Source of the DNA: Scenedesmus sp. ARA3
Taxonomy: Eukaryota; Chlorophyta; Chlorophyceae; Sphaeropleales; Scenedesmaceae
DNA: 64,000 nt
Assembly (NCBI GenBank): GCA_004335835.1
Contig: RWJK01001610.1
Location: 282 to 64,281 of the forward strand
Direction: 5' to 3'
The notes below the pieces were generated by a model that saw only the letters and a program-made list of their open reading frames with translations, was not told the DNA's origin and did not search any database. Shown piece after piece: positions 5,301-63,691 of this stretch (the first letter of the stretch is position 1; each line of letters begins with the position of its first letter). The position numbers were made by a program, and so were the translations under genes.

Positions 5301-8300
5301 GACATCATGGCTAATGTTTGGTGCTAGGGAGCATTGCTGAGAGAGGGAGGTTGCAGAGGTACATCGCGCTTATCCACTCAAGGATGGTGATGACAGGTAG
5401 TGTGTGCCACACTGACTTGTCGTTGCGCTGCTGCTTTGCTTGTGCTGCTGCTTTGCTTGGCTGGTCATGCAGGTGCTGCCTGGAGGCCGCATCCCCGCAG
5501 ACGGCGAGCTGCTGCACGACGCTCATTCCACTGATATTGCAGGCTGGTGCCTGTTTGCTGACTTGCGCTGCTGCTGCTTTGCTTGGCTGGTCATGCAGGT
5601 GCTGCCCGGCGGCCGCATCCCCGCGGACGGCGAGCTGCTGCACGACGCTTATTCCACTGATTATGACAGCTGCTGCATGGTTGCTGACTTGCGCTGCTGC
5701 TGCTTTGCTTGGCTGGCCATGCAGGTGCTGCCCGGCGGCCGCATCCCAGCAGATGGCGAGCTGCTGCACGGCTTCATCCCGGTAATCCTGACAGCTGGTG
5801 AATGTTTGAGTAAGTTGCGGTGCTGCTGCATTGCTTGGCTGGTCATGCAGGTGCTGCGTGGCGGCCGCATCCCCGCGGACGGCGAGCTGCTGCACGACTT
5901 TATTTCAGTAATCCTGACAGCTGGTGAATGTTTGAGTAAGTTGCTGCTGCTTTGCATTGCTGGCCATGCAGGTGCTGCCCGGCGGCCGCATCCCAGCAGA
6001 CGGCGAGCTGCTGCACGGCAGCTCCTACATCAACGAATCCATGATCAGCGGCGAGTCAGCGCCCGTGCTGCGCCAGGCCGGCGACGCCCTCATAGGCGGC
6101 ACCATCAACACGGGCAATGCGCTGATCATGCGTGCGAGCCGTGTGGGCGCAGATACCGTGCTGGCGCAGATTGTGCGTCTGGTGGAGCGCGCGCAGATGA
6201 GCAAGGCGCCGATCCAGGCGTATGCGGATTATGTGGCCAGCCTGTTTGTGCCGGTGGTGGTGGGGCTGGCGCTGATGACGTGGCTCATCTGGTGAGGCCC
6301 TTTGCATACACAGCTGCTTATGCCACGCGCATCATGCACAATTGATCACGTGCAGGCGGTGCTGGGAGCCCTGCTTAATCTGCGGTTATCTGCGTGTCGC
6401 GTGCCTGCCCTACCCTAACCACCCATTGACGGCGCGCCACATGGTTGCTGCACAGCTCTGGAGAATAACACACACATGGTTTGAATGCTCACGCGTGCAT
6501 CTCACACATATGCTGTGTTGCGCCCTGCAGGTTCATTGCGGGCAGTGTGGGCGGCTACCCTGAGGACTGGCTGCCGCTGGGCCACACGCACTTTCTGTTT
6601 GCGCTGCTGTTTGGCATCGCGGTGCTGGTCATCGCCTGCCCCTGCGCGCTGGGCCTGGCCACGCCCACTGCAGTGATGGTGGGCACGGGCGTGGGGGCGC
6701 ACCTGGGCGTGCTCATCAAAGGTGAGAGGCGTGGTTTTCCTAGGTGGTTGGCATGCAGTGTGTGTGCGCGGCTGGCGCAGGCAGTGGCGTTGGTGCTGCT
6801 GTTGCACATTCTGCAGAGCACATGGTGTGCTGCATGCACTGTTTCCTTCCTTGGGCCTTGCATGTTGCGGCCATGCATATGCACTGCCGGTTGCAGTGGC
6901 ATGCTGTGGTTGTGTTGGCTGTCTGCATGCCAGTCAGCGCATCGTTCCGTCACAGTGCATGCCCAGCTGTGTACTGACAGCAGATCATGTTTGTGTGCTG
7001 TCTTGTCGTGCTGCAGGCGGCGACGCGCTGGAGCGCGGGCACCACGTGAACACGGTGGTGTTTGACAAGACAGGCACGCTCACGCGCGGCAGGCCGCAGG
7101 TCACTGAGGCGGTGCTCTTCAACAGCCACTACTCGCTGCAGCAGGTCTGCCAGCTTGCTGCTGCTGTGGAGTCCTCCAGTGAGCACCCACTGGCTAAAGC
7201 AGTGCTGGAGTTTGCGCAGGCGGAGCTGAGCAGGCCCTCGCCGACAGCCGTGTTCAGCAGCAGCGCAGTAGATCTAAAGGCCAGCAGCAAGCAGCAGCAG
7301 CAGCAGTCTGCAGCGCCTGCTGGGCCGCATACAGTAGTGACGGTGGCAATGTACAGCTTAGAGGACGAGGATGGCAGCAGCCCGCGCTGCGGCGGCAAGC
7401 AGCAGCAGCAGCAGCGGCACGGCGTGCTGAGGCACAGCAGCAGCAGCCCGCGGCAGCGGCGAGGCAGCTGTGAAATGCAGCCGGGGTTGGTGAGCAGGCT
7501 GGGCAAGCAGCTGGCGAATAGCACAGGCGGGCTGGCTGCCTGGGCGGGGCATAGTGAGGGCGGGGAGGGCCCGGGGTCTCCTGTGAGCACCCCGAAGCGG
7601 CTGGGGCGCATGCTCAACTCGGGCATGCTGAAGGTGTCAGAAGTAGAGGTGAGCGCAGCTGCTGCTGGGCCAGTGCCATGCCATGCAGGTTGCAGCAGTG
7701 TGTGCTGTTGCATTTCGACGCACTGCGTGGCAAGGATGGGGTGGGGATGTACATGCGGAAGGTGGCGAGTGTCGAGGTACATGACGGCAGCTTGCATCAA
7801 GCCCGGCCGGCCAGCGCAACCGCTTGCTTTTTGCTTGCAGAGCACGCAAGCACATTAGCTCTACTGAATTCTGTACAGTTGCAAAAAACTTGAGGTGACT
7901 GTGGTTTGGCTTCTATCCTGCCTGTTTGCGGCCGCGTTGCTGACACCAGGTTGTGCTGTTCTGCCTGCTTCCTGCAGAACCATCCTGGTAAGGGCGTCAC
8001 TGCGCAGCTGCCTGACCCCAGCCTCAGCTGCGGCGGCAGCAAACAACCCCAGCAGCAGCAGCAACCGCAGCAGGTGCACATACAGGCCAACGGCAGCAGC
8101 AAGGAGCAACCAGCCGGCAGCAGCCTGCATGTTGCGCTCGGCAACCGGCTGCTGATGCAGGAGCAGGGGGTGCTGCTGGGGCCTGAGGTCGAGGACTACA
8201 TGCAGTCGAGAGAGGCGCAGGGCCAGACGTGTGTGCTGGTGGGCATCAACGGCAAGGCAGTGGCAGCGCTGGCAGTGTCAGACCCGCTCAAGCCTGAGGC

Positions 8301-9044
8301 ACTTGGAGTGGTGGCAGCGCTGCAGCGGCAGGTGAGGCAGGCGGGAGTCCATAGCAGTGCAATGAGGCTGTAGTGCATGCTTGTATGCGGTGGCAGCTGC
8401 TGGTAAGTGCATGTCATTGAGAATCAGGGCAGAACTTTGCCTGCACCAAGCGTGCGAGTATCTTGCTCACCTGCTGCTGCTGCTGCCGCTTCCTGCAGGG
8501 CGTCGAGTGCCACCTGCTGACCGGCGACAACTGGCGCACCGCGCGCGCGATCGCCAAGCAGCTGTGCATCCCCAGCAGCCACGTGTCGGCCGAGGTGCTG
8601 CCAGCCGGCAAGGCGGGCGTGGTCACTGACCTGCAGTCGCGCGGCTGCTGCGTGGCCATGGTGGGCGATGGTGTGAATGACTCGCCTGCGCTGGCGGCTG
8701 CTGATGTGGGCATGGCTATCGGCAGCGGCACAGACATTGCAGTTGAGGCTGCTGACTATGTGCTGATGCGGGATGACCTGGAGCAGGTGCTGATCGCGCT
8801 GGATCTGGCGCGCAAGACCTTCCGCCGCATCCAGTGGAACTTTGTGTGGGCGATGGGGTATAATGTGGTGATGATTCCGATAGCGGCGGGCGTGCTGTAC
8901 CCGCAGTTCCACGTGCAGATGCCGCCGTGGGTGGCTGGCGGCTGCATGGTGTTTAGTAGTGTGAGCGTGGTGCTGTCGTCGCTGACGCTGCGCGCGTACA
9001 AGCCGCCAATGCGCGTGCAGAAGCGCGACTCGCGGTGCGAGTAA
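2396..9044 (+). CDS. Cu+-exporting P1B-type ATPase with three HMA domains
   Basis: Heavy-metal P-type ATPase of the RAN1/ATP7/CopA group, moving Cu(I) across a membrane at the cost of ATP. Eleven exons join without any frame break: 2396-2658, 2961-3015, 3248-3379, 3761-4313, 4589-4842, 5043-5255, 5972-6291, 6531-6721, 7017-7648, 7978-8331, 8499-9044, giving 1170 residues. Three metal-binding HMA domains each carry GMTCxAC (about residues 73, 158 and 232). Membrane helices follow. The actuator loop has SGES where most relatives have TGES. The Cu-type CPC motif is at 633-635, the phosphorylated Asp of DKTGT at 677, the nucleotide-site SEHPL at 715-719 and GDGVND at 1045-1050. The nucleotide-binding domain is enlarged by Ser/Gln-rich inserts in exons 9 and 10. 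Intron 6 holds the exon-edge array listed separately. Which membrane it sits in, Golgi or plastid, cannot be read from the sequence. Confidence 0.95.
5440..6017 (+). repeat. tandem array of the start of ATPase exon 7 (5 copies)
   Basis: Acceptor plus about 46 nt of exon start occur five times, with exon starts at 5473, 5599, 5725, 5851 and 5972 (periods 126, 126, 126, 121). Each copy codes for [15 protein letters not shown] or a near variant and is preceded by a GCAG acceptor. Only the last copy continues into the rest of exon 7. The first four are in frame with each other; the fifth is shifted by one base. Confidence 0.93.
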
Positions 9045-10595
9045 GTGTTGTTGATGGAAAGTAGGTAGGTGCATTGAGCCAAGTGAGTGATCTCAATGCC
9101 GAGGGATCATGATCAGCCGATCGGCAGTTGTACAGTTCGTTTTGATTGGTATGCATCACATGGGCCGTAATTGTCTGCTGTGAGCGGCTTCGTGGTCATG
9201 CATAACGCATGATTACTCTTGACAGGGCGGCTGTAACAAGCACTGCATGGCAGCTGCGGGTGTTATAGCAAAACAACAGGCCGGTGTGGCTTTTGCGACA
9301 TACCTTGCCCCTGCACATGGCATGTGCACGGCGCGTCATGTTTGGTCGGCTTGGGGGCTCAGGTGTTGTAACCCGTCAACAGGTTGGCAACTTGTTGGCG
9401 CAACTTTGTATGAATGACGCTGCAGATGCGCCCCTTGTGAGTTGTTGGTTTCTGTACATAGATGTATTGCCTGCCGCGTGTTGCCACTTGAGCAGCATGC
9501 AGCCACTGCTGTACATGTGGATCAGGAAGTAGCGTTGCATGATGTGCACTGTGAGTGACTCATCAAGGTTTGCTGCACGTGCACGTCATGTTTGTGATTC
9601 AAGTGTGATACACGAGCGGCTGCCCTGTCACACTGTGCAAGCTGCTGACACGCACTGTCAGGTGATGTGTGGTTGTGGACGTGTGCTTGCTGCGCTTCTG
9701 CGGCGGCTGAGCAGTGCCCTGCATCATGTTGACCTGAGGCCATTCATGCTGCGCAATGTATTCAGTCATTGGCACATTATTGTGGCATAAATCTGGCAGT
9801 ATGCAAAGGCAAAATGCCATTGACAGCCATTGCTTGATTGTGAAAGCCATCATGGCACAGCAAGTTGCTGTGATGTGTTGTTCTGGTTGTGTCATCCGCC
9901 TCGCCAGTTCTTGTAAAGCTGGAGGTTGAAATTGGGGTCAGGTCCAGTTTTTAACGGCAACCAAAAGGTATAATATGCCTTGCCAGTGCCAGTTGTCAAG
10001 GTGCCACAACAGTCACTGCAGGTCCCGCAGCACCTCCTTGAAGGCTTCAGTTCTCTAGTTGGCTGCCTCAAAACAGCAATAACTGCAGTATTATTGAGTT
10101 ATGTAATGTATCTGTGCTCGAGTACAGTGCGCACATGTGCACAGCAGTTTCTGGCAGACGAGTGGGCATCTTGCAGAGTTTGCATGCGGCAATGCACCTT
10201 CAGTGCACGGCAAGGTTGTGAAGCAGCAACCCATACATGCACGTTACGATCAACCGTGCAGAAGTTCGGTCGCACACACAAGCAGCTAAACCATGGGACG
10301 CGACCTGTTGTTGACGCGCTTGTGGGAATGAAGCAGGCCTTCCCAACACAAGCGACCCATTGCTTAGTGTGCGGAACCTGTATAACCTTGTAATAGCTTA
10401 GGTTGGGACCTCTACAGCACGGCAGCACCTTCACACTTTAGGGCTGGTCAAACTCGCATCTTGCTCTCTTCTGCTTGCGAATCAAGGTCAAGCATAGCCA
10501 TAGCGGGTGGATCCTTTTCTTAGCTATAAGTTCGGCAAACCAGCTGTCTCTGATCGGCCGTGGGTGCCTGGTTCGACCGAAGCAAGGCAGCAGCA
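9045..10595. other. intergenic between Cu ATPase and MYB genes
   Basis: After the ATPase 3' UTR I see no open frame with family resemblance, no RNA gene and no repeat of note. The last several hundred bases must hold the MYB promoter; no element was identified with confidence. Confidence 0.5.
9232..9236 (+). terminator. TGTAA poly(A) signal candidate for the Cu ATPase
   Basis: Green-algal type signal about 190 nt after the TAA stop at 9042-9044. Position is the only support. Confidence 0.4.
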
Positions 10596-16300: not shown

Positions 16301-16619
16301 CGCCCGTGAGCTGGTAAGACCTGTTGAATGTGACCAACCACGATCCGCAGTCACAGTTGCACTGCGCAACCCCATAAGAACCACCATGTGTGCAAGCTCA
16401 GCCTTGAATGGATGTGCTGACAGTGCTTGTGATACGTGCATTGCATCAAAAAACATGTCCTGCTCTAAGCAGGCTTGAAGCCTAGGCCTCAAGCTTACCT
16501 AGTGATCAAGTGGACCAGCTGTGGTACGTGAGCAGGTGTGCCTGTTTGCATAGATTTGACTATCATTTGTGACTGCCCTGGTATGTTCTGCTACAGCAGA
16601 ACGTTCCGGAGCGCTGCCG
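13385..16619. other. 3.2 kb intergenic stretch between convergent MYB and USE1 genes
   Basis: Both flanking genes end here, so it should contain two 3' UTRs. Open frames up to about 150 codons occur on both strands but are Cys/His/Thr-rich, match no family I know and lack the exon codon pattern of the neighbours. No tRNA, transposon end or tandem array was noticed. A non-coding RNA cannot be excluded. Confidence 0.45.
16243..16247 (-). terminator. TGTAA poly(A) signal candidate for USE1
   Basis: TTACA on the plus strand, so TGTAA in the USE1 sense, about 375 nt after its stop. Weak, position-based call. Confidence 0.3.
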
Positions 16620-18708: not shown

Positions 18709-19112
18709 CTGGTCCCAGTGCCCGAGTGCTGATTGTTATGCCTTGCAGGCAACTTCGTTGTGCTCCGAGAAGCAGTAGGGAAGGTCAGGTAGACGGCAGA
18801 ACTTCATTGCGCACAAAGCGGCTTCAGCTCACATAGAACACTTTGATCAGACCTAATTACTTCAATTTTTGACGTTCAATGCTCCTGTCTTGGGCGAGGG
18901 GTGATGACACAATGTGACAGGTGTTAATTACAGCTCACCATACTCACCACATAGGCAACGCCTGGACACGAGGGACTAGCTACTAACGTGCACTAGCTGT
19001 GTACTTTCAGCGGCGTTGAGCGTCAACTAGCGCCTTTGCTAAGCTCAGGGGACTGTTCCTTTCGTTTGAGCTCACCTTCGTTTGCAGTCTTTCGGGTCAA
19101 CAGCACAGCAAC
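18709..19112. promoter_or_regulatory. shared upstream region of USE1 (-) and thioredoxin-like gene (+)
   Basis: About 400 bp separate the two divergent start codons, so both promoters and both 5' UTRs must lie here or overlap. No TATA box or known motif could be assigned. Bidirectional control is inferred from the arrangement only. Confidence 0.45.
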
Positions 19113-22599: not shown

Positions 22600-25309
22600 T
22601 CACACGCTGACAACATCAGCAGCTGCAGTCGATGCCAATGGCAGCTCGTCTGCATGCTCAGCCGCCACACCTTGCTGCGCTATGCCCTCCTCACCCTCAT
22701 CAGGCAGCTGCTGCTGGCCCTGCAAGCAGCACACGAGCAGGCAGAAAGAGTCACAAGGCTGGTCCGTTGAGCACGCACATGAAGCAAAGCATGCTGCAGT
22801 GCTTCGGACAGCCGCTGCAACACCACACAGCACGAGGCCTGGCGCAACTGCAGGACATCGACGCGCCGCTGTGCCGCCTAGGCCTGCTGCTGGAGCCCCA
22901 CATGCCCACAGCCTGTGTTTCCTTGCTGTGCCAAACACGACACAGCACTTCCGGACTGCACATCAACGGGTCTAGCATGGCACGCATACACACGTCAAGG
23001 CAATGCTACAGTATCCTGCTGTTTTGCAGGTGTTGCATTCAAGTGTGCCTTACCCGCTGCTCCCCCACCAGGGCCTGTATGGCTGCTGACAGCTCCTCAC
23101 GCTGCCGCCGCCGCCGCTGCTGCAGCGCCTCACTCGCCGACGACGGCTGCTGCTGCTGCTGCTGCGATGCTGCTGGTGCTGCCGTGCTGTGCCTGTCTCT
23201 CTGCTGCTGCTCCTGCTGGGCGTGCTGCAGCTGCCTGTGCTGCTCTATGCAAGATCGTAGCTGCATCATGCGACCCTGCAGCAGCACCAGCAGCAGCAGC
23301 AGCAGCAGACGTTCTGTGCTCGGAGTTCTGCGGATCCACGTCACACGTCCATCAAGTGCAAGCAATGCATGCAGCCGCACTCAAAGCAGCAGCATTGCAC
23401 AATCAGGCATGCAAAGTGCTGGCTCCTGGCAGCCCCACCGCCAGCACACAGCACAAGTGTCATATAATTGGCCAACCACCATCACAGCAGCTGCTGCACA
23501 CCCATGACAGCAAAAGTTAAGGTAGCTACTGCTCACCTGGTGCAGCTGTCTGAAGCTGGCTGCGAATGCGCCAGGCATCCACGCAGCCAGTATGTCCAGG
23601 CAGGCAGCAGCATGCTCCCCAGCATAGAAGCGCACCCACACCTCATCATCTGCGCTGCTGCTGCTGCCTGGTTGCAGGCTGGCAGAGCTGCTGCTGCTGC
23701 TTGCATGTGTGAGCACTGCAGCGTCCAGCAGTGCACGCACTGCTGCTATCTCAGACGGCTCCTGGAAGTACTGCTCAAACTGCAGGCACCACCACCAGCA
23801 GCAGCAGCAACGCGCAGTCAGCTTCAGCTTGGCAAGCCTATGCAGCTGCTGGTGCACATGAATGCTCAGTTGGTACCTCTCTGCATGTGCTGACCTTCAT
23901 TGTCCAGTTTCAAGTTCTGCTGCATCTGCTCATCGCAAACAACGCCTCACACAGCCTACGCAACCTTCCACAGTTGCCTTACCTGCTGCAGTGCCTGCTG
24001 CCTGTCCACACTCATCGGGTGCAGCGTCGCTGCCACCAGCAGCACCAGCGGCACCCCTTTGCCTTTCCACGCCACCCCAAGCCGCTCAGCCACCTGCACA
24101 GCCTGCTGCTGCACCTGAGCAGCAGCCAGAGGGCTGCAGTGCAGCTGCTGCTGCTGCAGCCAGGGAAAGAGGTGCTGCAGTAGGCCCAGGTGGTATGCCA
24201 GCTTCAGTGAGCGGGCCCAGGTGCCGGGCTGCTGCAGCTCGGCGCGGTGCAGCTTGCGCAGCTCCAGCCAGATGCGGCGCGGGGGCAGGCCTGCAAATGG
24301 GAGGTGGGGCGGCAGGCGGCAGCATGAACATGGGTTTAGAGTTGTCACTGCAACTGCAGCTGTAACATATATGACGCGGTGCAGCTTGCGCAGCTTGAGC
24401 CAGATGCGGCCAGGGAGCAGGCCTGGTGGGAACAAGGTGGGGCGGCAGGCGGCAGCACAAGACTTGGTCTTGAAGTTTTTTCACTGGAACTTCAGCTGTG
24501 ATACATCATGTCACGTATAAATTTATGTGCCATTGGTGTTGTTGCCCAGCGCAGGCAGCACACGTATGCCAACGCCAGGCAGGCACATCCGCCCAACCGC
24601 TGCTTGCTGGAGTGAAGCTGACAAGTTGGGACAGACTTGCGTCGCTGAGCACAGTGCTGACACTGCACAAGCAGTAGCATTGCAAAGCTTGCTGTGGCTA
24701 AGCTTTTGGTGTGACAGCCAGCATCACAAACTGCCGACCGCATATCCTTACACGCAGCACAGCAACTGTTTAAAGCAGCAGGCCGCACCCACCCTGCTGC
24801 ACCGAGCACAGGTGTGCGTGTGCCTTGACAGCCGCTGCAGTGGAGGGTGCCAGGCGCAGCCCCAGCGTCGCCACCAGCCGCACGCAGCGCAGCAGACGCA
24901 GAGGGTCCTCAGCCAGCAGCGCAGGAGAGTCGCCTGTGGCATAATTGGCACAGCGGGTTTCATATTATATACAGAGCCAGGCCAGGGTGACGTGCAGCAG
25001 ACGCAGAGGGTCCTCTGCCAGCAGTGTGGAAATGTCGCATTCGGCAGGCAGTGTTGCATAAAGCGGTGTCGGGAACAGTAGTGCCATAAGGGTGAGTAAG
25101 GGTGAGTGCAGCAGCCGCAGAGGGTCCTCCGCCAGCAGCGCAGGAGAGTCGCCTGACGCAGGCAACGTTCTGTGGACAACACAACAGGGCAGTGCCTGGT
25201 GCGGGTGCTGCAGTTGCTGAAGGCGCATGAGTTGCATGAAGTTCAGCGTCCCTGCAAGATGACACATACAGCAGAACATATTGCAGCGAAGACGCCCGGC
25301 AGTAATGTG

Positions 25310-25365
<56 letters not shown>

Positions 25366-27291
25366 CGGCATGCGCTGCTCAAACAGCGATTGTCACCTGT
25401 GAGGCGCAGCACGCGCTGCTGTGCGTCCGCCACGCCTCCCACAAAGTCCAGCACGGTGCCGCTGGAGGGGTCAAAATAGAGCGCGTTGATGGTGAAGTCG
25501 CGCCGCGCTGCAGCAGCAGGCACGGCAGCAGCAGCACAGGTGCTCAAACGTTATGTGAGTATGGTACAAGGGGTGTAATGTAGCGTTGCTGCATGCTGAG
25601 AGGTGTGGTGTAGCCTATAGCCGCCACTGTGCGCCTGTGGCAGGCGACGTGGCACGCCAGACTAGCATTGTCAGCAATGTACGAGCAGAGCGCCCCATCC
25701 CCTGCAGCCCAGAGCCCAGCAAGCCCTGAACCTGTGAACTTTACATCAAACTCCCACCGTGAACGTGAACTTCTGAGCCCTTGCCCGCACCTGCGTCGCT
25801 GGCCACGCTGAACAGGCTTGCTGCCCTGCTGATGCCCCTGAAGCAGCTCCAGCACCTCGCCTGCATAAGCTAGGCACTACCCTGAACCTTACACCTTACA
25901 TCAGATCCCTGCTGAGCCCTGAGCTCTGTGTGGTACATTTAAACCGCACCTGCGTCGCTGGCCACGCTGAACAAGCTTGCTGCCCTGCTGATGCCCCTGA
26001 AGCAGGTCACCTCCAGCACCTCCCCCGCATGGCTCAGCTTCACAGTGCTGCGCGGCAGCAGCACCACGTCACGGAACAGCGCCTTGAGCTGCGCATGACA
26101 AGCAGCAGCAGCACAGCAGCAGCATCAGCAGTGCTGCACAGCTCAGGCCAGCAGCAAGCATAACCTGTGCCTTGCTGCGCATGCATAGCGAGAGCGGCGG
26201 TCCACAAAGGCGGCTGAGCATGCTGAGCTGGCATCCGTGCACACGCGCTGCCTCAAGCGGCTTCATCAGATGTGCCACACACAAACACAGCCGCATGTGT
26301 GCCAACCTATGAACACTACTGTGCAACCCCACCCGCCCCCCACAAGCGCACCTGCCATGGCGTGGCGTTGGTGGCGATGTCAATGTCGCTGGCGCGCCGC
26401 CCCAGGTACTTGTCACGCACCCAGCCGCCCACAATGAGTGCCTTGTAGCCGCGCCCCTGCAGCCTGGCAGCAGCAGCAGCAACAAATGCAGTATGACGTC
26501 AAACACGGCGTACCAATGAGCGCCTTGTAGCCGCGGCCCTGCAGCATGGCAGCGGCAGCAGCAGCAGCTGGGAGAGGACATGCAGCCAATTGTTGAACCA
26601 GCGCACAACAAGCCACTGCTGGCCCAACTTAGCAGCACACGAGCAGCCCTAGCTGGGCACCATGGGACCAGCTTAGCAGGTGGCCCAGCTTTCAGCCTAG
26701 CCGTTGATTGATTGAGCTGAAAGCCGGCAGCTGCGCTTGCGTTTGCTGCCTCTCTCACACCTGGCAATCACTTGCTGCGCCTTGTCGAAGGAGTCTCGCT
26801 CCTCATCATCAATTGGGTAGGCAGGCAGCGGGTGGCTCTGCACCGCCACCTCATCAGTGGCAACAGCACTGGCAGCGGCGCTGCTGCTGTCTTTGCTGCT
26901 GCTGCTGCTGCTGTCTCTGCTGCTGCTCTTTTCACTGCCATTGCGTCTAACAGCAGCTGCAGTAGCCGCTGCCTGCTGCTGCTCGCTGCTGTCTGCAGCA
27001 GCTACAGCGGCCTGAGCGTCCAGAGGAGCAGCTGTGTCTGGAGCAACGGCAGCAGCAGCAGGGGCGGCAGCAGCAGCAGCAGCAGCAGAGGCAGCGCTGT
27101 GTCTGCTGCTGGCTCTGCTCAAGCTTGCGCTGAAGGCTGGATGCTGCCCTACTGCACCACCACCTGACAGCGGCGGCTGCAGTTTATGTTTGCTGTGCTG
27201 CGCTGCTGCCGCAGGTGCTGCTTGCTGTGGTTGCTGCTGCTGTTTCTTCTGTTGCTTGCTGCCAGGTTTGTGTTGACGCTGCTGTGGTGGC

Positions 27292-27344
<53 letters not shown>

Positions 27345-27350: not shown

Positions 27351-28070
27351 GTGGTGTCTCACCCCAGCAGGCCATGTTTGCAGGCAGCCTGCAAGTACAT
27401 TGCTCAGCAGTCAGGCAGAACAACATCAACAGCATAACCAAAAAGAAGCAACTACAGCTTCAAAGAAATGACATTTGGATTGCTGCTGATCTGTGTTGAT
27501 TTGCCAGCAGCTTACCAGTGCTGCTGTGGCATTGCCAGGGGTTGTTCAAGCCCAGTGCAGAGCACAGCTGCGCCACTGCACTGCAGCAGTGGCTGACAGC
27601 ACACACTGACACTGCACTGCTGCTGGTTCTGGGTATGAGACTCATTATTATGCTATGGCTGCATGTGCTGCAGTGCTGGCTGACAAAAAAGAAGATGGTG
27701 CCAGTAGCAGCGGCAGCGGCAGTAGCAGCAGCAAGACAAGCAGTCAAGGGTGACACCAGTCTGCCGTGCCGTCATCCTTGTGATTTGAGTGCTTTAGGCC
27801 AAGCCTGAAAGCAGTTTCTACAGATGATATGTGAAGATCAGGTCTTGCAGAGGTGCTGGTGACACACCAGAGACACAAAGACATACATGACAACCGACTA
27901 ACAGAGCGTGCCCGGTACGTCTCGCAACCATTGCAGTCTTTTAATGTCAACGGTACTGTCTACGACTGAATATCTATGGTTACAAGCACGCATAGCCCAA
28001 GGAACTCACTCACCTGCTTGTCCGCATTGCCTGCATGCAACCCTGTGCTTGCTGACACCGTTGAATCACC
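27351..28070. other. region between nucleotidyltransferase (-) and RED (+), divergent
   Basis: It should hold the first exon of the nucleotidyltransferase gene, both promoters and both 5' UTRs. Two minus-strand frames (about 27756-27460 and 27950-27744) might contain that first exon, but no splice combination could be proved. A short minus-strand frame at about 27375 begins with ATG and runs into a GTGAGA donor. Confidence 0.4.
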
Positions 28071-29191
28071 ATGGGTGATGCCTGGACGAGTCAAACACCG
28101 CTGAGGAATTCGGACTTCAAGGCCCTGCTGGCCACACCTAGGCCAGCCCACCTGCAGCAGCAGAAGACACACAGACACAAAAAGAAGGACTATAGCGAGG
28201 AGGATGGCGAGAAGAAGCAGAAGTTCAAAAAACCCGCACCTAAGCCTCGGCCCGGCAAGAAGGATGAAGACAAGGAGAAGGAGGAGGGGCCTGGCTACAG
28301 GTGCGCTGCCCATGCTGCAAGCTGTGCACGCTGCTGCAGCTGCAGACGCTGTCGTGCTTCTGCTGCAGCTTTACAAGCAGCAAAGAAGCTTTCATCAGAG
28401 ACCAGAAGCAGCAGCATCAGCAGTGTGGTGCCGCTGGCAGCAGCACATGTGCCCCTTGCACCACCAGCAGCAGCAGCAGCAGCACTCCGCGTGCAGTGCA
28501 CACACGCAGCGCAAGCAAGCGACACTGCATGCCTTGCTACTTTGTGATGCTTGATCATCAGCACCACCATCAGCATGCTCTTCAAAGCAGCTTGATGCAG
28601 CTGCTGAGCACAACAACTGCAGCAGGCCTGTACCACTTTGCACCACCTGCTGCTGAGGTGCAGCACCACCCTGCACAGCACTGGTGGAGCATCTTGGTGC
28701 TCAAGGACAAGATATGGTGTTCTTGTACTTCCTGCTGGCTGCTGCTGCTGCAACCCAGGACCGCGCCAAGGAGCGGCGTGAGGGCGTCAGCGTGGACTTT
28801 GCTGAGCTGGCGCAGCGCCACCCTGCGCAGCAGTGCTGCTCTTGTATGGGCTTATACCTCTGCTGCTGCTGCTGCTGCTGCCGGTGCCTGCAGGTGCCCC
28901 TCTCACAATCCAACTGCTGATCTCTACTGCTGCTCGGAACCTGTCTTTTAAGTCAACTGCTGACTCCTGCCGTTGCTGCCGCTGCTCCTAGGGATCGAGC
29001 CAAGGAGCGGCGTGAGGGTGTCAGCGTGGACTTTGCTGACGCGGAGGCTGAGCTGGCGCAGCGTGGGCTAGGTCCCGGCTCGCTGCAGCACCTGAGCATC
29101 GAGCAGTCCAAGTTCCTGGGAGGTGACATTGCGCACACGCACTTGGTGAAGGGACTGGACTATGCGCTGCTGCACCAGGTGGGTGCAGGGG

Positions 29192-29223
<32 letters not shown>

Positions 29224-30661
29224 GATGGCAGCAGCAGCAGCAGCAGGTTATCCAGTGTCCTCCGGCGTCGTGTGTCTCTGCAACTCTACAGCAGCAGCGG
29301 CAGCAGCGACACAGGGAAACCTGTGCGGTGGTTGACCGTAGAAGCACTAGTGTTCAGGCAAGCCTTGGCAGCAACAGTAGCAGCAGCAGCAGCAGCAGCA
29401 GGAGGAGGAGGAGCTGCACAAAGGTCAGAAAGCGGGAGTCCTGGCACTCAAGACGCTTCATGGGTGCTGCTGACAGCGTCACTGCTGGTCGCCGCCTTGT
29501 AACGCTGCCTGCCGCACCTGTTGCTGCGCCGCACCTGCTGCTGTGCTGCCTGCAGGAGCGCCAAAAGCTGGAGTCAGACAAAGCCAAGGCAGCAGATTCA
29601 GCAGCAGCAGCCAAAACCGCAGGCATGCTGCCGCGAGGCGTTGCCCGCGAGCAGCAGCAGCAGCAAGTGCAGTTCCAGTCGCAGCAGGGGCGCGCAGTGT
29701 ATGATGCGTTGTTTAAGCCGCCGCTGGTGAACAGAGCCCTGCTGAGGGAGATGTTCCAGCCAAGGCGCACTGCATTCCTGTTTGAGTTTGGGGAGGGCTC
29801 TGGTGATGTGCCCACCACGCTGCGGCGCTCCAAGGCGGACTGCCCGCAAGTACAGGTGGGCTGGGTGGAAGGAAAACCTGAAGCATGCCGGCGTGTGTTT
29901 GTGGCGTGTGTTTCAGTATCTTACTGCCAAGGCGGACTTGGCAGACTGTTCCGGCCGCCCCTGTACAGTGCCTTGCTGCTGGCTGTCATGCATCGCCTCG
30001 TACGGCGCTGGCACCACATACTCATGTATGTTGGGGACTTGCTGCTGCTGCTGCTGCTGCCGCGTTAGGACCTGGTGTCTGCTGCTGGTGACGGCTTGCT
30101 GCTGGGGCGCGTGGCCAAGGTGCTGGGATACATCCTGCTCAGTACCTTGCTGCTGCCGCTGCTGCTGCTGCTGCTGCTGCTGCCGCAGGATCTCGTGTCT
30201 GCTGCTGGTGACGGCTTGCTGCTGGGCCGCGTGGCCAAGGTGCTGGGCTACATCGCGGCCAGCAGCAAGGGCGGCAAGAAGGGCGAGCGGGACAGCGCCT
30301 ACATCCGCAGCATACTGGCGGGCGGCAACCCGGCAGCAGGGGGCGATGCACAGGTGGGGCCTTGCAAACCTGTGGAGTGCAGGGTTGTGTCTACTGTATT
30401 TGAATGGCGTAAGGTGCAACAAAGGGAGCAGTTAGGCCCTTCAACAGACATGCGGAGTGCAGTGCGGATGGGGATATACGCGTGGAAGGGGAGTGCAGAT
30501 GGCAGCAGCAGCAGGAGTTGCAGAGGATTCGTTCAGGAGATTGGCAGACAAGCAGTAGCGGTTGATTAATTGGCAAGTGCTGCTGCTCTTGTTTCAGGTG
30601 TGTTCACCGCTGCCTCTGCAACCATGCACTGAACTGCTGCTGCTGCTGCTGCTACTGCTGC

Positions 30662-31213: not shown

Positions 31214-31262
<49 letters not shown>

Positions 31263-33232: not shown

Positions 33233-33761
33233 ATGAGTGGTCCACGGAACGGGTCGCATCGTGGCAATACAGCGGGTGGGCCTGAGGAGGGCTTGCTGCT
33301 GGGGCTGTCCGAGGACTTACTGGCACGGGCTTTGCTGTTCTCCAGTGCTGATGACGCCTGTAGGCTCAAGGCGGTCTGCAGGTGCGTGCTGCAGCACTTG
33401 CGGAGTAAATGGTGTTGCTGGCAAGCACAGCAGCAGCAGCATGTCAGCTGTGTCTGCTACTTCACAGCGGTTCAGTATTGCCAGCACTTTCCATATCAAT
33501 CACCTCGTTTTCAATTTGAGCTATTTTCTAGTCAAACAAACTCTGCCTGGTGCTTGCAGGAAGCTGGATGGTTCTCTCAGCAAGCTCGTCTGCTTTGGGC
33601 AGCACCACAGGGTGAGCTGGCTGGCACCTATCAAATGGACACGTTTCCATAAGCCAAGCATTTGCGAATTGACCACTGGTCGTTATCTGAAGGCACACCT
33701 ACGATTGCCTGTAAGTTTTGTCAGCATCACGCGCCAAACAGGCACTCAACAGCTCCTCCCT

Positions 33762-33810
<49 letters not shown>

Positions 33811-35880
33811 TCCTTGCGCATGCGCCAGCAGCCATCACAGCCACAGGGTGTGCACTGCAGTTTGCCTGCACACTGCTGCTTGCCGCCAGGGGTGCTGGCT
33901 GTCCTGCTGCTGCGCGGGGCTTCTGGGGCACACTGCTGCTGGGCCTGCTGGCCTCAACCACCTCTGCTGCTGCTGCTGGCGGCGGTGCCAGGCTGGCTCA
34001 GCAGCTGCTGAAGCTGGCTGCACAGGCTGCAAGCAGCAGCAGCAGCAGCAATGCTGATGAAAGCAGTGGCAGCAGGCCCAACAGCAGAAGCAAAAGCAGC
34101 AGCATCAGGGTCTTATGGAGGCAGATACCTGTTCCTGCACCTGACACCACGCCCTGGGAAGAAGCCACAGATCCAGCTGCAGCAGCAGGCGGCAGCAGCA
34201 CTCCTGCTGATGGCAGTGACAGTGCTGCAGCTGCTGATGGCGGCAGCAGCAGCCACTGGCTGCCGCAAGGCTGTGAGTCATCTGCTGCCTGCCTGCATTA
34301 TCATGTGCGGCAGTTCCTGTCGGCGCTGCTGGTGCTGCTGCGGCTGGCCCCGCTCAGGAGAAACGGCCTGCAGGAGGCGGCTGCACTGCAGGAGCTGCAT
34401 TACAGCGTGCTGCAGGTGTGTACATGTCACAATGACTGTGTTCATGTTATATAACATCTGTCATAACATACCTGACTTTCAATCAGCTGTTGTCGCTGCA
34501 AATGGTTTGGGCAGGCAGCCTGGAGCTAGCACTACAGCAGTGAAGTTTGGTGCTCAGCCAGCACCTGTGCTAGCTTAGTACCGCCTTTTCAAACAGCCAG
34601 CACATCACCACGACTTTCCTTCTGCGGCTGCTACTGCTGCTGCTGCTGCCAATCATCGCACAGGAGCTGCTGCTGCAGGAGGCGCAGGAGGCAGATGCAG
34701 CAGCAGCAGCACTGAGTGCATGCCTGGCCAGCCCAACAGCAGCCAGCTGGCAGCTGCAGCAGGCTTGCCTGCGGGGGCTCGGCCCACTGCGGAGCAGCTC
34801 AAGGTGGTGCACGCGGTGGCGGCTGCGCCGGGCGCAAACAATGACCTGGTGCTGTGAGTGACGTGACGGCTGCGGGGCTGGGCAGTTTGAACACAGTGCC
34901 TCATGATGCTAGGAATGATGCTCGTGGCTATGGGTCTGACTGGATGCAAGGTTTAGGTGTTTCTAGGTGTGACATGAGAGGTCAACTGCTGTTATAATGG
35001 TCCAGTCATAAACACGGATGCTGCGTTTTGGCGTGACATTCGCGGCTGATACCTGTATGTCAAGTAGTACCTGTTTTGTGTCGAGCGGTTGCAGAGGAGC
35101 ACCAGCCACGCACCTATCCCTGGTCAAACACTGACCGTCAATCTTTTGTGTTGTGCTGCTCCTGTGCTGCTGCCGCAGCATCAATGCCTTTGCCGGTGAG
35201 TGAGCAGAAGACTTGCACCTGAACCTTCCTCTTGTCAACTGAACACAGCAAACCAGCCTATGATTGCAGACGTTGGATATTTACACGCGGCAATTCTATA
35301 TCCATCAATGGCAACACAGCAGAGACGCGTAACCAGTGCACTGCAGGCTTTACATTAAGACACTGAGCTCGTTTCACTTATGTGTTATTCAATTGCTGTC
35401 TGCTGTTGCGCCACGCCCCTCTGCTGCAGGCACTGCCAAGTCTACCACTCTCAAGCTGCTGATGCATGCCAACCCAGAGTCAGTCTTCCTGTACACAGCT
35501 TTCAACAAGGTAGTGGTGGAAGATGCACGCAGCAGCGCGCCCAGGCATGTTCACTGCAAGTAAGCAATACTGCTGGGTTGATGTGAGGTGTGATTGTAGA
35601 GGTTCAGGTCGTCTGCCACATGCTGCGGGTGCTTATGCAGAAGCAAAGCCAGAAGCGGCAGCACAGCTACATGCACAGCCGCTTGGCAGTACAGTTACAC
35701 GGCAGTACAGCCACACGCACAACATGCACATATGTCAACTGACGCTACTGGAAGAACGTGTGTACTTGCATCAAAAGCCGCCCTCTTCGCCAGCAGCAAC
35801 AGCATCATCATGATAACACTAACCGGCCATGAACAGTCTTCACCATTCACCAGCTTTATTGGCTGTGCTGCTGCTGCTGA

Positions 35881-35943
<63 letters not shown>

Positions 35944-38328
35944 AGGACCACGCACCAGCTGGCTGCCCCCAAGCGGGAGGAGATGAAGGCGCGGCCACGC
36001 GGCTGGCAGCTGTAAGTGGCGCAGCAGCAGGACATTACAAGTCTTTCGCTGCATAGACGTCGCTTACATACAATGGCTGAAAGCCATGCCGCCCACCATG
36101 AGACACATGCTTATCTTGTAAACCTGCTTCACACCCTGCAGCTGGAACGAGGGCTTGATGGTGGATGAGATTTGGGATGCCCTCATGCAGCTGCCTTATT
36201 GCATCATAGTTGCATTCATCCGGTTTCTCCGCCCGCCATGAGACACATGCTTATTTTTTTAACCTGTTTCACACCCTGCAGCTGGCCGGGGGGCTTGATG
36301 GTTGATGAGATCTGGGATGCCCTCAAGGTGCTGCCTTACTGCATAATAGTTGCATTCTTCCAACTTCTCCGCCCACCATGACACACATGCTACCTTTCAA
36401 ACCTGCTTCACACCCTGCAGCTGGAATGGGGGCTTGAGGGTTGATGAGATTTGGGATGCCCTCAAACTGCTGCCTTATTGCATACAAGTTGCATTCTTCC
36501 AACCTCTCCGCCCACCATATGAAACACATGCTTATCTTTCAATCCTGCTTTACACCCTGCAGCGGGCCGGGGGGCTTGATGGTGGATGAGATCTGGGAGC
36601 GGCTCAAGCTCCTGCCTTGTGGCATCATAGTTGCATTCTTCCAACTTCTCCGCCCACCCTGAGACACCTGCTGCCTTCACACCTGTTTCAATCCCTGCAG
36701 CTGGGCGGGCTTAATGGTGGATGAGATCTGGGATGCCCTCAAGGTGCTGCCCTACTGCATAATAGTTGCATTCTTCCGGTTTCTCCGCCTGCCATGACAC
36801 ACATGCTTCCATTCAAACCTGCTTCACACCCTGCAGCTGGAACGGGGGCTTGATGGTGGATGAAATCTGGGATGCTCTCAAGCAGCTGCCCTACTACCAG
36901 CAGCGCGTCGCTGCCGGCAGCAAGGGCCCGCCGCGCCAGGTGGCGGCAGCAGTGAAGGAGGCGCTGGACAAGTTTGTGACGAGTGCTGACAGGCGGCTGG
37001 GGCGGCAGCACCTGCCCAAGGCCCTGGACCCGCTGAGGTGAGGACGCTAACAGCTGAGGCTTCATTTTTGCATTTAGGGGAAAAGCTGCTGTGCTGCTTG
37101 CTGTTGAATCACACTGGTGCATTGCAACAAGCCCAGGCCCCTGGACCCGCTGCGGTGAGGAACCAACGTGCATGACATGTTTATGATGCAATGCGGCAGC
37201 TGCTCTGCTGGCTGCTGTTGAAGCACGCCCCGTTGTGCTTGAAGAGCGTGGTATGCTTTGACTTGAGTGTACACACGAGGCATATGCGTACAAACTCCCA
37301 GCTGCCATACTGTCTGTTGTGCTTGTACGTTCCCTGTTAGCGGCGCTTGAGCTGCTGGCACAGGCTGTCTTTGTGTTTGTGCTGTCATGCCGCAGCCACT
37401 ATGTGCGCTGAGGACGCTGACGCTGCTGTGCATGTGTGCTGTCTTTTGTGTATGTGCTGTGCTGCCGCAGCGACCCTCCTGACTACGTTGAGGTGGCACA
37501 ACAGATGTGGCAGGCCATCCTGGACTCCTCCTGCCGCCCCTTGAAGTTCAGCCACAACACCTACCTCAAGCAGTTCTCAGACGCACTCGCAGATAACCAG
37601 GGAATCCTGCGCAACTGGCGCGGCCAGCCCTACCAAATCATCCTCATTGATGAGGCACAAGATGTCAATCCGGTCACACTGCAGATGCTGCTGAGTCAGC
37701 CTTGCTTGAGAGTGCTGGTAGGGGACAGGCACCAGCACATCTACAGCTTCAACTTTTGCGCCAGTGCGCTGGAGGGTGCGGCGGCGGCGGCGGCGGCAGC
37801 TGGGCGGCCCAGCAGGGTGCGCAGCTACAGCCTGAGCAGCAGTTTCAGGCTGGGGCCGGCTGTAGCAGTTGTGGCAAACAAGTGAGTGGGATGGGGGTCC
37901 GTTGAATTAGCTCTTGCTCTTGCTCTGCACGCCTTCTTTTGTGGTACTTTGTGGCGAAGGCCCGCACTGCAAGAGTGCCCTCACATCATTGGCAGTGTGA
38001 TGGTTGCCACTGCAAGTGTCTTGCTGGTGTACATGCTGTGTCACTTTGCACACAGCTGCAGGGCCAAGGAGGCACCTTCAGCCGGCTTGCAATGCTCGAG
38101 ACTGTGTCATGAAGTTGTGTGCCTGACGCTGTTTTCTGCACACGTTTCTGCTTGTGTATCGCCTCCTGCGCTGCAGGCTGCTGTGGCAGTTGGGTGAGCG
38201 CAAGTGCCCCCTGGTGGGTGTGGGCTGGCAGCATGCAGCAGTGTACAGGCAGGTGAAGCTAGACCATGCCCAGCAAGGCACAGCAGCAGCAGCAGCAGGC
38301 CAGGCAGCCGGCCAGGCAGAAGGCGTAG

Positions 38329-38362
<34 letters not shown>

Positions 38363-39787
38363 GGAGGCTTACTTTGAGCAGGTGCAGCTACTGCAGCAGC
38401 AGACCACCACAGGCCAAACTCCTGCGCAGCTGGAGTCACTGAGCTTGCGTGTGGACACAAAGGACGGGCCAAAACAGCTGCACCTGGCGCTTCCACCAGT
38501 TGACCCCCAAACAGGCAAGCGGAAGCCGCTATGGTATGTAAAACATTATGACAAGACGTGGGTGGAGGCTGCAGCAGCGCTCGTGCTGCCTGATAGGCAG
38601 CTGGCAGGGCTGGGCAGCCCTGCTGCTGGCACGCCTGGTAGCAGGCTTGCCGGCACACCAGGCTCTGGCGCGCGCAACAACAGCGGCCGCGCTGCTGCAC
38701 TTGATGCGGCAGACGGCAGCCTGCGGCGCATCCTGTTTGGAGTGCCAGTTGTCGCAGCAGCAGCTGCTGCTGCTGCACATGTGCTGGAGCATGACGAACA
38801 GGAGGCAGCGCAGCAGCAGCAGCAGCATGGGGTGCTGCTTGGCAGCCAGATCAGCAGCCAGGGCAGCAGCACGGCTGGGCAGCCCAGGCTACAGCAGAGC
38901 TGGCAGCCAGCTATCAACGCCTCAGCAGCAGCAGCAGCAGCAGTATGTGGTGCCAAAGCTGTTCCTGACAGCTGTGGATGGCTACAGCGGCAGGGTGGAG
39001 TTCCTGGAGAACGTGCTGGGCATATACAGGCTCAAGTGCGCTGCTGTTGAAGGGTGTAATGTCTTGTTACTTGTTGTTGCATGCTTAGCAGGTGCATGCA
39101 TGACTGTAGTCAACACGCATGTCTGTTTGCAGCTGCTCTCAGGGCCGCATGGCGACTCTTGTCAGGCTGTTGTGCTGGCGCTGTGTTGCTGGCTGTTAAT
39201 GTGTGCAGCAGTGCAGTAAGTGGTTCATATGCAGTCTAGCTGGTCAACTTGCTGCTGCTACTGTACTGTATTGCCTGTTGTACCGTCTGTTGTACTGCCT
39301 GATGTACTACCTTGTGTACTGCCTGTCGTACTGCCTGCAGGTACCACGGCAGCCGGTTCAGGCAGTACAGCTCCTGGGATGACCTGGAGAAGGCTGCTGA
39401 GCGGCGTGAGGACGCCGACCTGTTGGGAGCCATTGGCCTGGTGCGAAAGTACAAGCAGGCCACGCAGCAGCTGGTGGAACCCATACAGGCGGCACAGGTG
39501 GGACCAGCGGTGTGTTGGTGCAAGGCAGAGGTGTACATGCAAGTTTTGAGTCTGCACGAGGTCATACTCAAGATTGATTGCCTGCTCCGTTGCACCCAGG
39601 CGCCAGCGGCGCACAACCATGGCAGCTGCCTACACCAACACTGCAGCGGCCCTCAGTGTAATGCTGCTGCCCATGCTGTTGATGTTGCTGCTGCTGCTGC
39701 TGCTGCTGCTGCAATGGTCAGGTGCGCCGCAAGGCTGATGCGGACTTCATCCTGGGCACCTGCCACAGTGTGAGCACCTGTAACTGC

Positions 39788-39853
<66 letters not shown>

Positions 39854-41376
39854 AGGTGCTGCGCAAGGCTGATGCTGACTTCATCCTGGGCACCTGCCAC
39901 AAGGCCAAGGGCTGCGAGGAGGACTACGTGCAGCTGGCTGACGACTTCACACCCATTCGTGCGGGGCGGCAGCCCGACGTGGAGGTGAGTTACAGATAGC
40001 TGTGGACAGGCGATGCTTGTGGCTTTGCCCACATATGTGTGCGTTCATGGAGGTTGAGCGCGTATGGAAGAGTGCAGCTGGATGCTGGTGTGCTTGTGGT
40101 GTGGCTGAGCATGCTTTGACTCGCAAGGGCACTGGCAGGGCTGTGGGGTCTGCAGGGTGCTTGCTGCAGCTCAGCACGAATGCAGAGGACTACGTGCAGC
40201 TGGCTGACGACTTCACACCACTGCGCGCGGGGCGGCAGCCCAACGCGGAGGTGTGTTTGGTTGTGCTGGTAGAAAGCTGGTCATGGGCTGTGGTGTTGCT
40301 TGTGTGTGTGTTTGTACGTGTGTGGTTTTGAGTCCTTGCTGTGAGCTTGGACGCAGATGTAGAGTGCAGTTGAGTCCCGGGTGAACTCATCCGTGCATGC
40401 GGCTGAGCAGACTTTGAAGTGGAGAGGCAGAGTAGCTGTAAGTGCAGAGAGTGGGCTACGGCTCAACTTTCCAGCAGGTGGATGTAACAACACAGCACAC
40501 AGTACGTTTAACCCAGTGACAAGTCCTTTCGCAAGCCTGCTGCGGTGGCTGTGTGCTGCAGGTGGACGAGTACAACCTGCTGTATGTGGCTGCGACGAGG
40601 GCCAAGCTGGCGCTGGTGCTCAACCCAGACCTGCAGCAGCTGCTGCTGGCTGGCAGCCACAGGCCGGTGCTGCTGTGGGTGAGACCTGCGGGTGGCTGAA
40701 CTCACTTCACATTGTATATCTGTGCGGAGTTTATGCCAGCATACTATTTGAGAGAGGATAGTACATGTGGGTCCTGGCACCATCTTATGGTATGAGCAAT
40801 ACTAGGGTATGAACTATGCTATGGTATGAGCCATGCTATGCTACATATATGCTAGTAACTGCAATGGTATGCAGCACACGAGCGGCAGATAGCTTGATGC
40901 CAGGCAAGTGATGCATGCGGCGCACTGCTCCGGTGTTGTGTCCTCCCTCAGCGCACTACGGCGTCTCGTTTGTGTATGCCTCAAACATCCGTATGCTGGC
41001 CTGCTGCCGCTGCTGCACACAGGCTGCTGGCAATGCAGCAAGGACCGCTGCCGAGGAGAGCCAAGCAGCTGCCCAGCACTGCAGCTGCTGCAACCAACCC
41101 GTCATCAGGCCAGCAGGCACTGCCACATCCAGCACATCAAGCACTGCTACGCCAGGCGTGGCCATTGCATTGGTGTCGCAGCAGCACCGGCTGCAGATGC
41201 CTGTGCTGTTTGGAGCTGAGCAGGCCGAGCCAGGGCTGGCAGCAGGGGTGATGCAGCAGGTGCAGCAGCTGGAGCAGCAGTGGCAGGCGATGCAGCAGCA
41301 GCAGCAGCAGCAGGAGATGCCCATTTGTGCTGGATGTGTGAAGAGCAGCACGATATGGGGTCAGCTGTGTGGCTGA
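33233..41376 (+). CDS. FBH1: FBH1-type F-box DNA helicase (UvrD/SF1 family)
   Basis: FBH1 joins an F-box (SCF ubiquitin ligase) to a UvrD-like 3'-5' helicase and limits Rad51 filaments during recombination. Supported exons: 33233-33381 (F-box, LSEDLLARALLFSSADDACRL), 33560 to about 33611, one or more between there and 34415, about 34679-34853, 35179-35195, 35430-35559, 35946-36011, 36837-37037, 37471-37881, from 38177, one ending 39035, 39341-39497, 39856-39984, 40562-40678, 41023-41376. Helicase motifs: Q-like PTAEQLKVV; Walker A as AGTAKSTTL; FNK; CKTTHQLA; Walker B LIDEAQD; VGDRHQHIYSF; SSSFRLG; LGTCHKAKG; and NLLYVAATRAK. The last exon has two Cys pairs (CSCC, CAGC). Unresolved: the frame link at 34415/34679, and 38252-39035. 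Note a 17-nt exon just ahead of the Walker A Gly. Confidence 0.88.
33764..33808 (+). repeat. (CTG)n microsatellite in FBH1
   Basis: About 14 CTG units within the unresolved 5' part of the gene, likely intronic. Confidence 0.9.
35867..35945 (+). repeat. (CTG)n tract forming an FBH1 acceptor
   Basis: A CTG run with a few changes ends in CTGCAG at 35945, directly before the exon coding TTHQLA. Confidence 0.9.
36095..36890 (+). repeat. six tandem copies of the VDEIWDAL exon start in FBH1
   Basis: Acceptor plus exon start occur at 36142, 36282, 36421, 36563, 36701 and 36837, with periods 140, 139, 142, 138 and 136. Each unit holds ACATGCTT-type intron sequence, a CCCTGCAG acceptor (all six) and the segment coding LMVDEIWDAL or a variant. 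Only the last copy runs on into KQLPYYQQRV and the rest of the exon. Copies differ by scattered substitutions. Confidence 0.95.
37020..37165 (+). repeat. duplicated end of the same FBH1 exon (LDPLR)
   Basis: The last 20 or so bases of the exon ending at 37037, with its GTGAGG donor, recur at about 37136-37160. So this one exon is duplicated at both edges. Confidence 0.75.
39262..39340 (+). repeat. GTACTGCCTG-type minisatellite in front of FBH1 exon
   Basis: Five to six imperfect units of TGTACTGCCTG fill the 75 bp before the CTGCAG acceptor at 39340. The same unit precedes two PRP8 acceptors. Confidence 0.85.
39719..39905 (+). repeat. duplicated start of the FBH1 motif V exon
   Basis: RKADADFILGTCH is coded from 39722 behind a TCAG acceptor and again from 39856 (period 134). 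The first copy breaks off at CAC-AGT; the second continues through KAKG. A (CTG)n run lies between them and forms the second acceptor. Confidence 0.92.
39915..40250 (+). repeat. duplicated end of the FBH1 motif V exon
   Basis: The segment coding EDYVQLADDFTP...AGRQP with its donor is present at 39917-39984 and again at 40185-40249, about 265 bp apart. The second copy has Asn-Ala-Glu for Asp-Val-Glu and a GTGTGT donor, and its own CAG acceptor-like start. Confidence 0.9.
40780..40880 (+). repeat. short ATGCTATGGTATGAGC-like repeats in FBH1 intron
   Basis: Four imperfect copies of a CTATGGTATGA-like unit, interrupted, in the last intron. No splice signal is attached. Confidence 0.6.

Positions 41377-42864: not shown

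Positions 42865-63691
<20,827 letters not shown>

Follow-up and report, generated by a model that had tools for sequence, protein, structure and literature searches.

Introner elements, which form dispersed families, account for mass change of intron content in algae, and decoy exons or decoy splice sites are strong, unused splice sites inside introns. Tandem duplication is known as an origin of new introns, e.g. in the near intron pairs of Drosophila (PMC2891723) and in potato RdRp (PMC4974935). Here we describe a related arrangement in the green alga Scenedesmus sp. ARA3, in a 64,000-nucleotide stretch of contig RWJK01001610.1 (assembly GCA_004335835.1, positions 282 to 64,281 of the forward strand; "the window", to which the coordinates below refer). 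Beside exons of several genes, PRP8 above all, the exon edge with its splice site is repeated once or several times inside the adjoining intron. The edge joined to the exon body is called live, further copies are called dead, and the intron sequence between copies is the spacer.

Like intron gain by tandem genomic duplication, the arrays involve local tandem duplication of exon sequence with a splice motif, one copy of which is intronised. In those cases a new intron lies between two proto-splice-site copies, whereas here an existing intron grows, one border per unit, and the copies occur on both intron sides and genome-wide. No PRP8 unit contains both ends of an intron: each aligned unit spans one border, donor or acceptor, and the intron's other border lies elsewhere. 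Internal tandem repeats and minisatellites that modify genes (PMC2812944) are likewise tandem units within genes, but the units here are anchored on splice borders and often only the exon part is recognisably repeated; head-to-tail repetition of whole units, as in an intronic minisatellite, is supported in 25/59 arrays and undetectable in 34/59. Stwintrons (PMC8469720, PMC9024468) also stack more than one splice-site set in one intervening sequence; by definition, however, they are nested introns with consecutive excision. Decoy splice sites and the arrays both place strong sites within introns; here only the live copy appears in three proteins. Similar sequence at many loci, as in introner families, was not found for PRP8 exons 8 and 26, the two examined. 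The exon 8 spacer and upstream flank each have one genomic match, itself, and the 47 further matches of the exon 26 spacer lie nearly all within query bases 14–57, read as its CTG-repeat part. An origin of the spacer elsewhere in the genome was rejected for exon 8 only, on the strength of this uniqueness. Exon-edge arrays are described in none of the titles and abstract openings listed from open-licence PMC literature, in a search that did not extend to subscription papers.

The reference gene is PRP8 (42868..63694, minus strand), modelled from residue 36 of P0001, the annotated Tetradesmus obliquus protein OEZ86_006694, onward, with the N-terminus outside the model. The spliced alignment, identical to P0001 at 2305/2308 residues, divides the gene into 36 exons separated by 35 GT-AG introns, and the protein is matched at each junction. 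Eighteen arrays lie at its 70 borders, at the donors of exons 1, 2, 3, 10, 13, 20, 28, 30, 31 and 32 and the acceptors of exons 5, 8, 16, 22, 26, 32, 33 and 36, with 1–3 extra copies at periods of 87–146 bp:

63300..63507, minus strand, exon 1 donor array; in the dead copy the 42-bp exon part is perfect, GT reads GA and the flank has diverged
62457..62745, minus strand, exon 2 donor array with a long exon part of about 86 bp
61403..61772, minus strand, exon 3 donor array
59960..60399, minus strand, exon 5 acceptor array with unlike spacers
58584..58751, minus strand, exon 8 acceptor copy, mismatched at 1 of 49 aligned bp; the spacer bears no relation to the flank and occurs once in the genome
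57595..57725, minus strand, exon 10 donor copy, exon edge only
56180..56435, minus strand, exon 13 donor array
54566..54733, minus strand, exon 16 acceptor copy; relationship of the flank not significant (p 0.10)
52174..52625, minus strand, exon 20 donor array of 3 dead copies, whose nearest relative differs by exon and by flank similarity
50655..50811, minus strand, exon 22 acceptor copy
48921..49068, minus strand, exon 26 acceptor copy, without mismatch over 41 bp; spacer unrelated
47594..47887, minus strand, exon 28 donor copy (47716–47887), then a 27-bp minisatellite (47594–47733)
46290..46777, minus strand, exon 30 donor array, young, 95% over a 139-bp unit
45707..46014, minus strand, exon 31 donor array
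45393..45518, minus strand, exon 32 acceptor copy
44970..45272, minus strand, exon 32 donor array
44742..44886, minus strand, exon 33 acceptor copy
43039..43177, minus strand, exon 36 acceptor copy

The minisatellite in intron 28 (5.2 copies) has a unit that holds the exon-28 donor CACAG/GTGAG, i.e. the dead donor itself has been amplified.

Arrays were called by self-comparison (E<=1e-4, distance 50–600 bp, dust on). Splice borders are touched by 27 of the 28 clusters in the window, whereas circular shifts of the arrays give 13.3 ± 2.6 (maximum 21 in 400). This agrees with the original prediction that exon edge and splice site are repeated beside the real exon; its count of 16 acceptor-side and 13 donor-side arrays becomes 15 and 12 by our own assignment; the pair at 28730–29039 is left unassigned, and a weak donor pair at 37014–37161 falls below the cut. 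The predicted genome-wide habit is also borne out. Two sets of stretches, neither strictly random, were analysed: 19 informative 10-kb loci from evenly spaced contig starts (L015, all N, was dropped) and eight later stretches from long contigs met as matches of the PRP8 exon 26 spacer search. A predicted border is touched by 45/73 arrays in the first set (null 24.0 ± 3.5, maximum 34) and, with the exon scan frozen, by 26/30 in the second (null 13.8 ± 2.4, maximum 21), i.e. by 71 of the 103 arrays (4.05 per 10 kb) counted over 254,091 non-N bases. Extrapolated from these 27 loci, the 87.27-Mb assembly (1567 contigs) holds about 35,000 local repeat arrays. Their density is uneven (chi-square per degree of freedom 3.57). 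Four stretches (L004, L010, L017, L025) with 11–19 predicted exons have zero arrays, while others have 7–11 per 10 kb, a strong locus dependence.

Exon borders are exact from the protein in PRP8 and predicted everywhere else by an exon scan, for which training on PRP8 was followed by refinement on the sampled loci. At a score above 20 it yields 249 exons, compared with 7 on reversed sequence, and it recovers 30/34 internal PRP8 exons exactly; the exons of the Cu-ATPase and core FBH1 genes were later backed by protein alignment (P0121 and P0241, respectively), the FBH1 model covering the core with the ends excluded. A whole-gene model trained on PRP8 had been rejected, as it drifted to CTG repeats on self-training and also merged genes. 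All tests were conceived after the data had been seen, except the frozen-scan rerun on the later loci.

The clearest signal is the asymmetry of orientation. Exon tails are echoed downstream at 9/34, 22/136, 2/51 and 12/70 borders in PRP8, the sampled loci, the other window genes and the later loci, respectively, and upstream at 0/34, 1/136, 1/51 and 2/70. Exon heads, in the same order, are echoed upstream at 7/34, 8/136, 9/51 and 10/70 and downstream at 0/34, 2/136, 0/51 and 1/70; among the other window genes, heads show this asymmetry and tails do not clearly do so. With three sets summed, nearby copies are found for 57/442 exon edges in the expected direction, 20/442 intron segments 90–141 bp from the border and 3/292 exon middles. 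Chance is excluded as the source: random 475-bp stretches match exon heads and tails in 0/170 and 0/170 trials for PRP8, 0/680 and 3/680 for the sampled loci, 0/255 and 0/255 for the other window genes and 0/700 for the later loci, and PRP8 compared with itself gives 35 pairs within 1200 bp, as opposed to 1 match at any distance against its own reverse.

Random duplication followed by purging predicts a weaker preference for borders than the arrays show. Duplications of 90–150 bp placed evenly on PRP8 and the ATPase gene and passed through an exon-sparing filter would fall at borders in about 48% of cases; 19/19 do so (p 8e-7). The value is 5e-5 if interior arrays fade 1.6 times faster and 8.9e-6 if the intron-28 minisatellite, left out as interior since its unit contains the exon-28 dead donor, is counted as a 20th, interior array. 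The 19-array list, the unit lengths and the classification of arrays as edge-only or related-spacer were compiled by hand. The suggestion that selection merely retains border duplications while purging others is thus not enough. Periods of border-touching arrays lie within 90–165 bp in 56/71 cases, compared with 13/32 for other arrays, and have the tighter spectrum (Levene p 1.2e-4). Exon parts measure 33–59 bp (one is 86), tighter than even placement (Kolmogorov–Smirnov p 1.3e-6) and compatible with it if a spacer of at least 50 bp is required (p 0.28); the unit geometry is similar at both intron ends. As had been proposed, the arrays enlarge introns. Across PRP8 and the ATPase gene, the 46 introns have a median of 245.5 bp once dead units are subtracted, and array-free PRP8 introns have a median of 246 bp; of PRP8 intron DNA, 23.9% consists of dead units. 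T. obliquus has a mean intron of 462 bp, the longest of five green algae in Table 1 of PMC5966456, and border arrays may help explain it.

The exon-edge parts stay alike however far the spacer has diverged (STATISTICALLY). In 25/59 arrays the spacer shows a relationship to the nearest copy's far flank (p<=0.05 against unrelated flanks), and several arrays repeat the whole unit; in the other 34/59 the spacer is indistinguishable from unrelated intron. The earlier statement that adjoining intron belongs to the repeat therefore holds for the former and fails in 34/70 arrays, or 34/59 judged flank by flank, where only the edge and splice site are recognisable and alignments stop some 10 bases or less from the splice site. 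The copies differ by scattered substitutions, as predicted, with a median exon-part divergence of 0.065 (6.5%) where the spacer is related and 0.067 (6.7%) in the remaining arrays. Similarity of edge and flank is uncorrelated (Spearman 0.11, p 0.41, n=59), with edge means of 0.78, 0.79 and 0.79 in three flank bins (n 33, 13 and 13). Neutral-decay simulations give 0.63–0.73 and a lost flank in 3–12% of detected copies compared with 33/59 (56%) observed; real copies were located through their exon part, and the simulation is a simple one with a similar detection cut. In the later loci 6/10 flanks are lost, the same direction as in the sample. A two-sided search (score 50) finds the 50-bp exon edge copied at 15/70 and 45/424 borders and the 50-bp intron edge at 1/70 and 11/424; at least one young array, that of PRP8 exon 30, probably had its flank masked by the low-complexity filter of this search. 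Among dead copies, exon parts are more alike than flanks in 25/26 arrays (0.88 vs 0.61), to which never-duplicated end flanks contribute. The statistics on edge and flank, codon position and splice sites include the array antisense to the ATPase array (predicted exon 5417–5763, minus). This uncoupling and the excess at borders over the filter model go beyond the original prediction, and ordinary tandem duplication with decay does not account for them.

Only the copy on the exon body fits the protein, as had been claimed, in PRP8 (against P0001), the Cu-ATPase gene (P0121) and FBH1 (P0241). The relevant arrays of the latter two genes are:

5442..6019, plus strand, Cu-ATPase acceptor-side array of exon 5972–6291, 4 dead copies plus the live one, period about 124; exon backed by P0121
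36089..36895, plus strand, FBH1 acceptor-side array of exon 36837–37037, period about 139, 5.8 units by TRF
39662..39901, plus strand, FBH1 acceptor-side copy of exon 39856–39984, period 134–138
39919..40257, plus strand, FBH1 donor-side copy of exon 39856–39984, distance 266

The 12 ATPase exons are fitted by P0121 save for a 13-residue length difference within a Ser-rich stretch, and a 10-residue motif present five times in the DNA occurs once in the protein. P0121 is most likely transcript-derived, because its source contigs of at most 4711 bases are shorter than the 6.6-kb gene. The annotated FBH1 protein P0241 likewise has one copy where the window DNA has several. The idea that dead copies are a source of working alternative splice sites is not supported by these three proteins, which use the live copy only. 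Staggered-break repair, put forward earlier as a possible active process, is at present a conjecture. In FBH1 the copies 266 bp apart, like those at about 9430–9857 of L018, stand roughly two units from each other, perhaps through decay of the copy that was nearest or through duplication of two units as one block.

We tentatively favour, with a little less than even confidence, border duplication followed by short conversion from the live exon. Tandem duplications of about 90–150 bp (~115 bp; about 30–60 bp of exon and 53–91 bp of intron) would arise recurrently across exon/intron borders and be tolerated, the copy joined to the exon body retaining a full exon and splice site and the extra copies joining the intron, which would grow by whole units. 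Short exchanges of the live exon with a dead edge, by gene conversion or recombination, would keep the two alike only across the still-matching edge and splice-site consensus; the spacer, once diverged, would escape homogenisation. Renewal is given the edge over selection on the copies, its main rival, because of the frameshifted copies, the excess of differences at codon position 3 and PRP8 exon 1, where a perfect 42-bp edge stands beside a broken GT. That dead copies are coding was rejected, their gaps including 19 that shift the frame and 6 multiples of three, with some stops (84 and 9, respectively, by global alignment, which has edge effects). Differences between dead copies are in excess at position 3 (0.138 vs 0.074 and 0.079; 0.164 vs 0.103 and 0.113), which suggests descent from a coding live edge at different times. 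A single inter-allelic event is argued against by arrays with several unlike spacers.

Several points weigh against conversion. Serial duplication and GC-rich third positions can also yield the position-3 excess. The polypyrimidine-tract score of dead acceptors (0.10) does not differ from that of live ones (0.46, p 0.51) and exceeds that of control intron CAG sites (-2.3, p 1e-10), and even in 21 dead acceptors without a recognisably related flank the tract stays above controls (p 3e-6); edge-limited conversion would not maintain such tracts, which favours function or recent function. The correlation of edge and flank in the later loci is 0.30 (p 0.40), from very few arrays (n=10). In the FBH1 array 36089–36895 the exon part has diverged at least as much as the intron part (0.186 vs 0.152). 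Exon and flank are congruent in 7/14 informative triples, which are non-independent and include one antisense to the ATPase, and a slow live exon alone can give incongruence. Homology of 40–60 bp is short for gene conversion, and conversion itself is deduced from sequence patterns. If edges are indeed renewed, conversion would operate over some 50 bp.

A possible but doubtful alternative is that exon edges are recurrently written into introns by a border-recognising process, or kept as functional echoes, their exon part being either renewed from the live exon or under joint constraint with it as spacers turn over. Strong splice sites with no apparent use, each with a copy of its own exon edge, would then number in the tens of thousands.

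Rather unlikely, in our estimate, is purifying selection on dead copies as working decoy acceptors or donors that tune splicing or intron retention. AG is kept in 50/53 dead acceptors and GT in 55/61 dead donors, the edge-only class keeps its dinucleotides in 55/62 cases, and the acceptor tracts described above, strong even without a related flank, fit such a role. Similar retention of the dinucleotides is, however, expected from 6–7% divergence alone, the position-3 excess between dead copies suggests copying from coding sequence rather than constraint on each copy, and the exon 1 dead donor of PRP8 has a perfect edge without its GT. If edges are kept by selection, a large unrecognised layer of splicing control would be at hand.

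Ordinary tandem duplication everywhere, with harmful duplications purged and neutral decay, a slow live exon keeping exon parts visible longer, is unlikely. Geometry alone puts about half of the tolerated duplications across borders, the codon-position pattern and frameshifts fit relaxed copies, and so does the FBH1 array. Copies with recognisable flanks show live–dead divergences of 0.069 (exon) and 0.108 (intron), close to the expectation if only the live exon is constrained and the copies are free. With the FBH1 case, this places the puzzle in the lost-flank arrays. The 20/442 intron segments copied nearby also fit, though such segments can be part of border arrays. Opposed to it are the 19/19 arrays at borders where 48% are expected (8e-7, or 5e-5 with the 1.6-fold detection handicap), the uncorrelated edges and flanks (0.63–0.73 simulated), the 56% of flanks lost as against 3–12%, and the different period spectra of border and other arrays.

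Copying of edge and splice site without flank, its boundary set by splicing or transcription, is improbable. The 34/59 spacers that resemble unrelated intron at equal exon divergence (0.067 vs 0.065), the edge-only alignments ending some 10 bases or less from the splice site and the like geometry at both intron ends would suit it, yet a random landing site would lack the strong acceptor tract that dead acceptors have, the unique exon 8 spacer and flank of PRP8 leave no donor elsewhere, and whole-unit arrays of equal geometry exist. Still less probable are large intron deletions, favoured by selection for short introns, that erased the homologous flanks of normal tandem duplications: introns are rich in indels (recognisable flanks carry 0.022 gaps per bp at 0.108 substitutions), but deletion ends should scatter through the flank, whereas in edge-only arrays the homology breaks off close to the splice site, and the polypyrimidine tracts of dead acceptors have survived. 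An assembly artefact, e.g. exon edges falsely duplicated where haplotypes have unlike introns, has hardly any chance despite the fragmentation of the assembly (1567 contigs, with several stretches containing runs of N), given up to five differing copies per array, frameshifts in copies, regular units, dead copies that appear more decayed at codon positions 1–2 than alleles would be, single full-length genomic matches of window DNA queries, and vegetative cells that are considered haploid in Sphaeropleales (PMC5966456).

How introns grow and new splice sites originate has long been asked, and examples still under way are scarce. Among about 35,000 extrapolated arrays of many ages, birth, spread and decay could be measured directly in one genome.

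The alga appears to be a Tetradesmus, at or very near T. obliquus, because its PRP8 is near-identical and the order of PRP8 and the adjoining FBH1, which matches OEZ86_006695, is common to both, as the consecutive locus numbers OEZ86_006694 and OEZ86_006695 indicate. PRP8 (42868–63694) is 99.9% identical to T. obliquus, core FBH1 (33366–41093) only about 79–100%. Runs of (GCA/CTG)n are very numerous across the window (e.g. 25311–25364, 31214–31261 and 39784–39862), and predicted exons also contain Gln, Ala and Ser tracts. The remaining repeats lie in two further genes, one nucleotidyltransferase-like and one RED-like, and their surroundings:

24243..24499, minus strand, nucleotidyltransferase-like gene, acceptor-side copy of predicted exon 23983–24290, period 132
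24886..25164, minus strand, acceptor-side copies of predicted exon 24793–24933, distances 105 and 219
25785..26030, minus strand, donor-side copy of predicted exon 25950–26088, period 159
26432..26566, minus strand, acceptor-side copy of predicted exon 26352–26456, period 82
28730..29039, plus strand, RED-like gene region, repeat pair 235 bp apart, assigned to none of the predicted borders
30040..30254, plus strand, RED-like gene, acceptor-side copy of predicted exon 30189–30353, period 120

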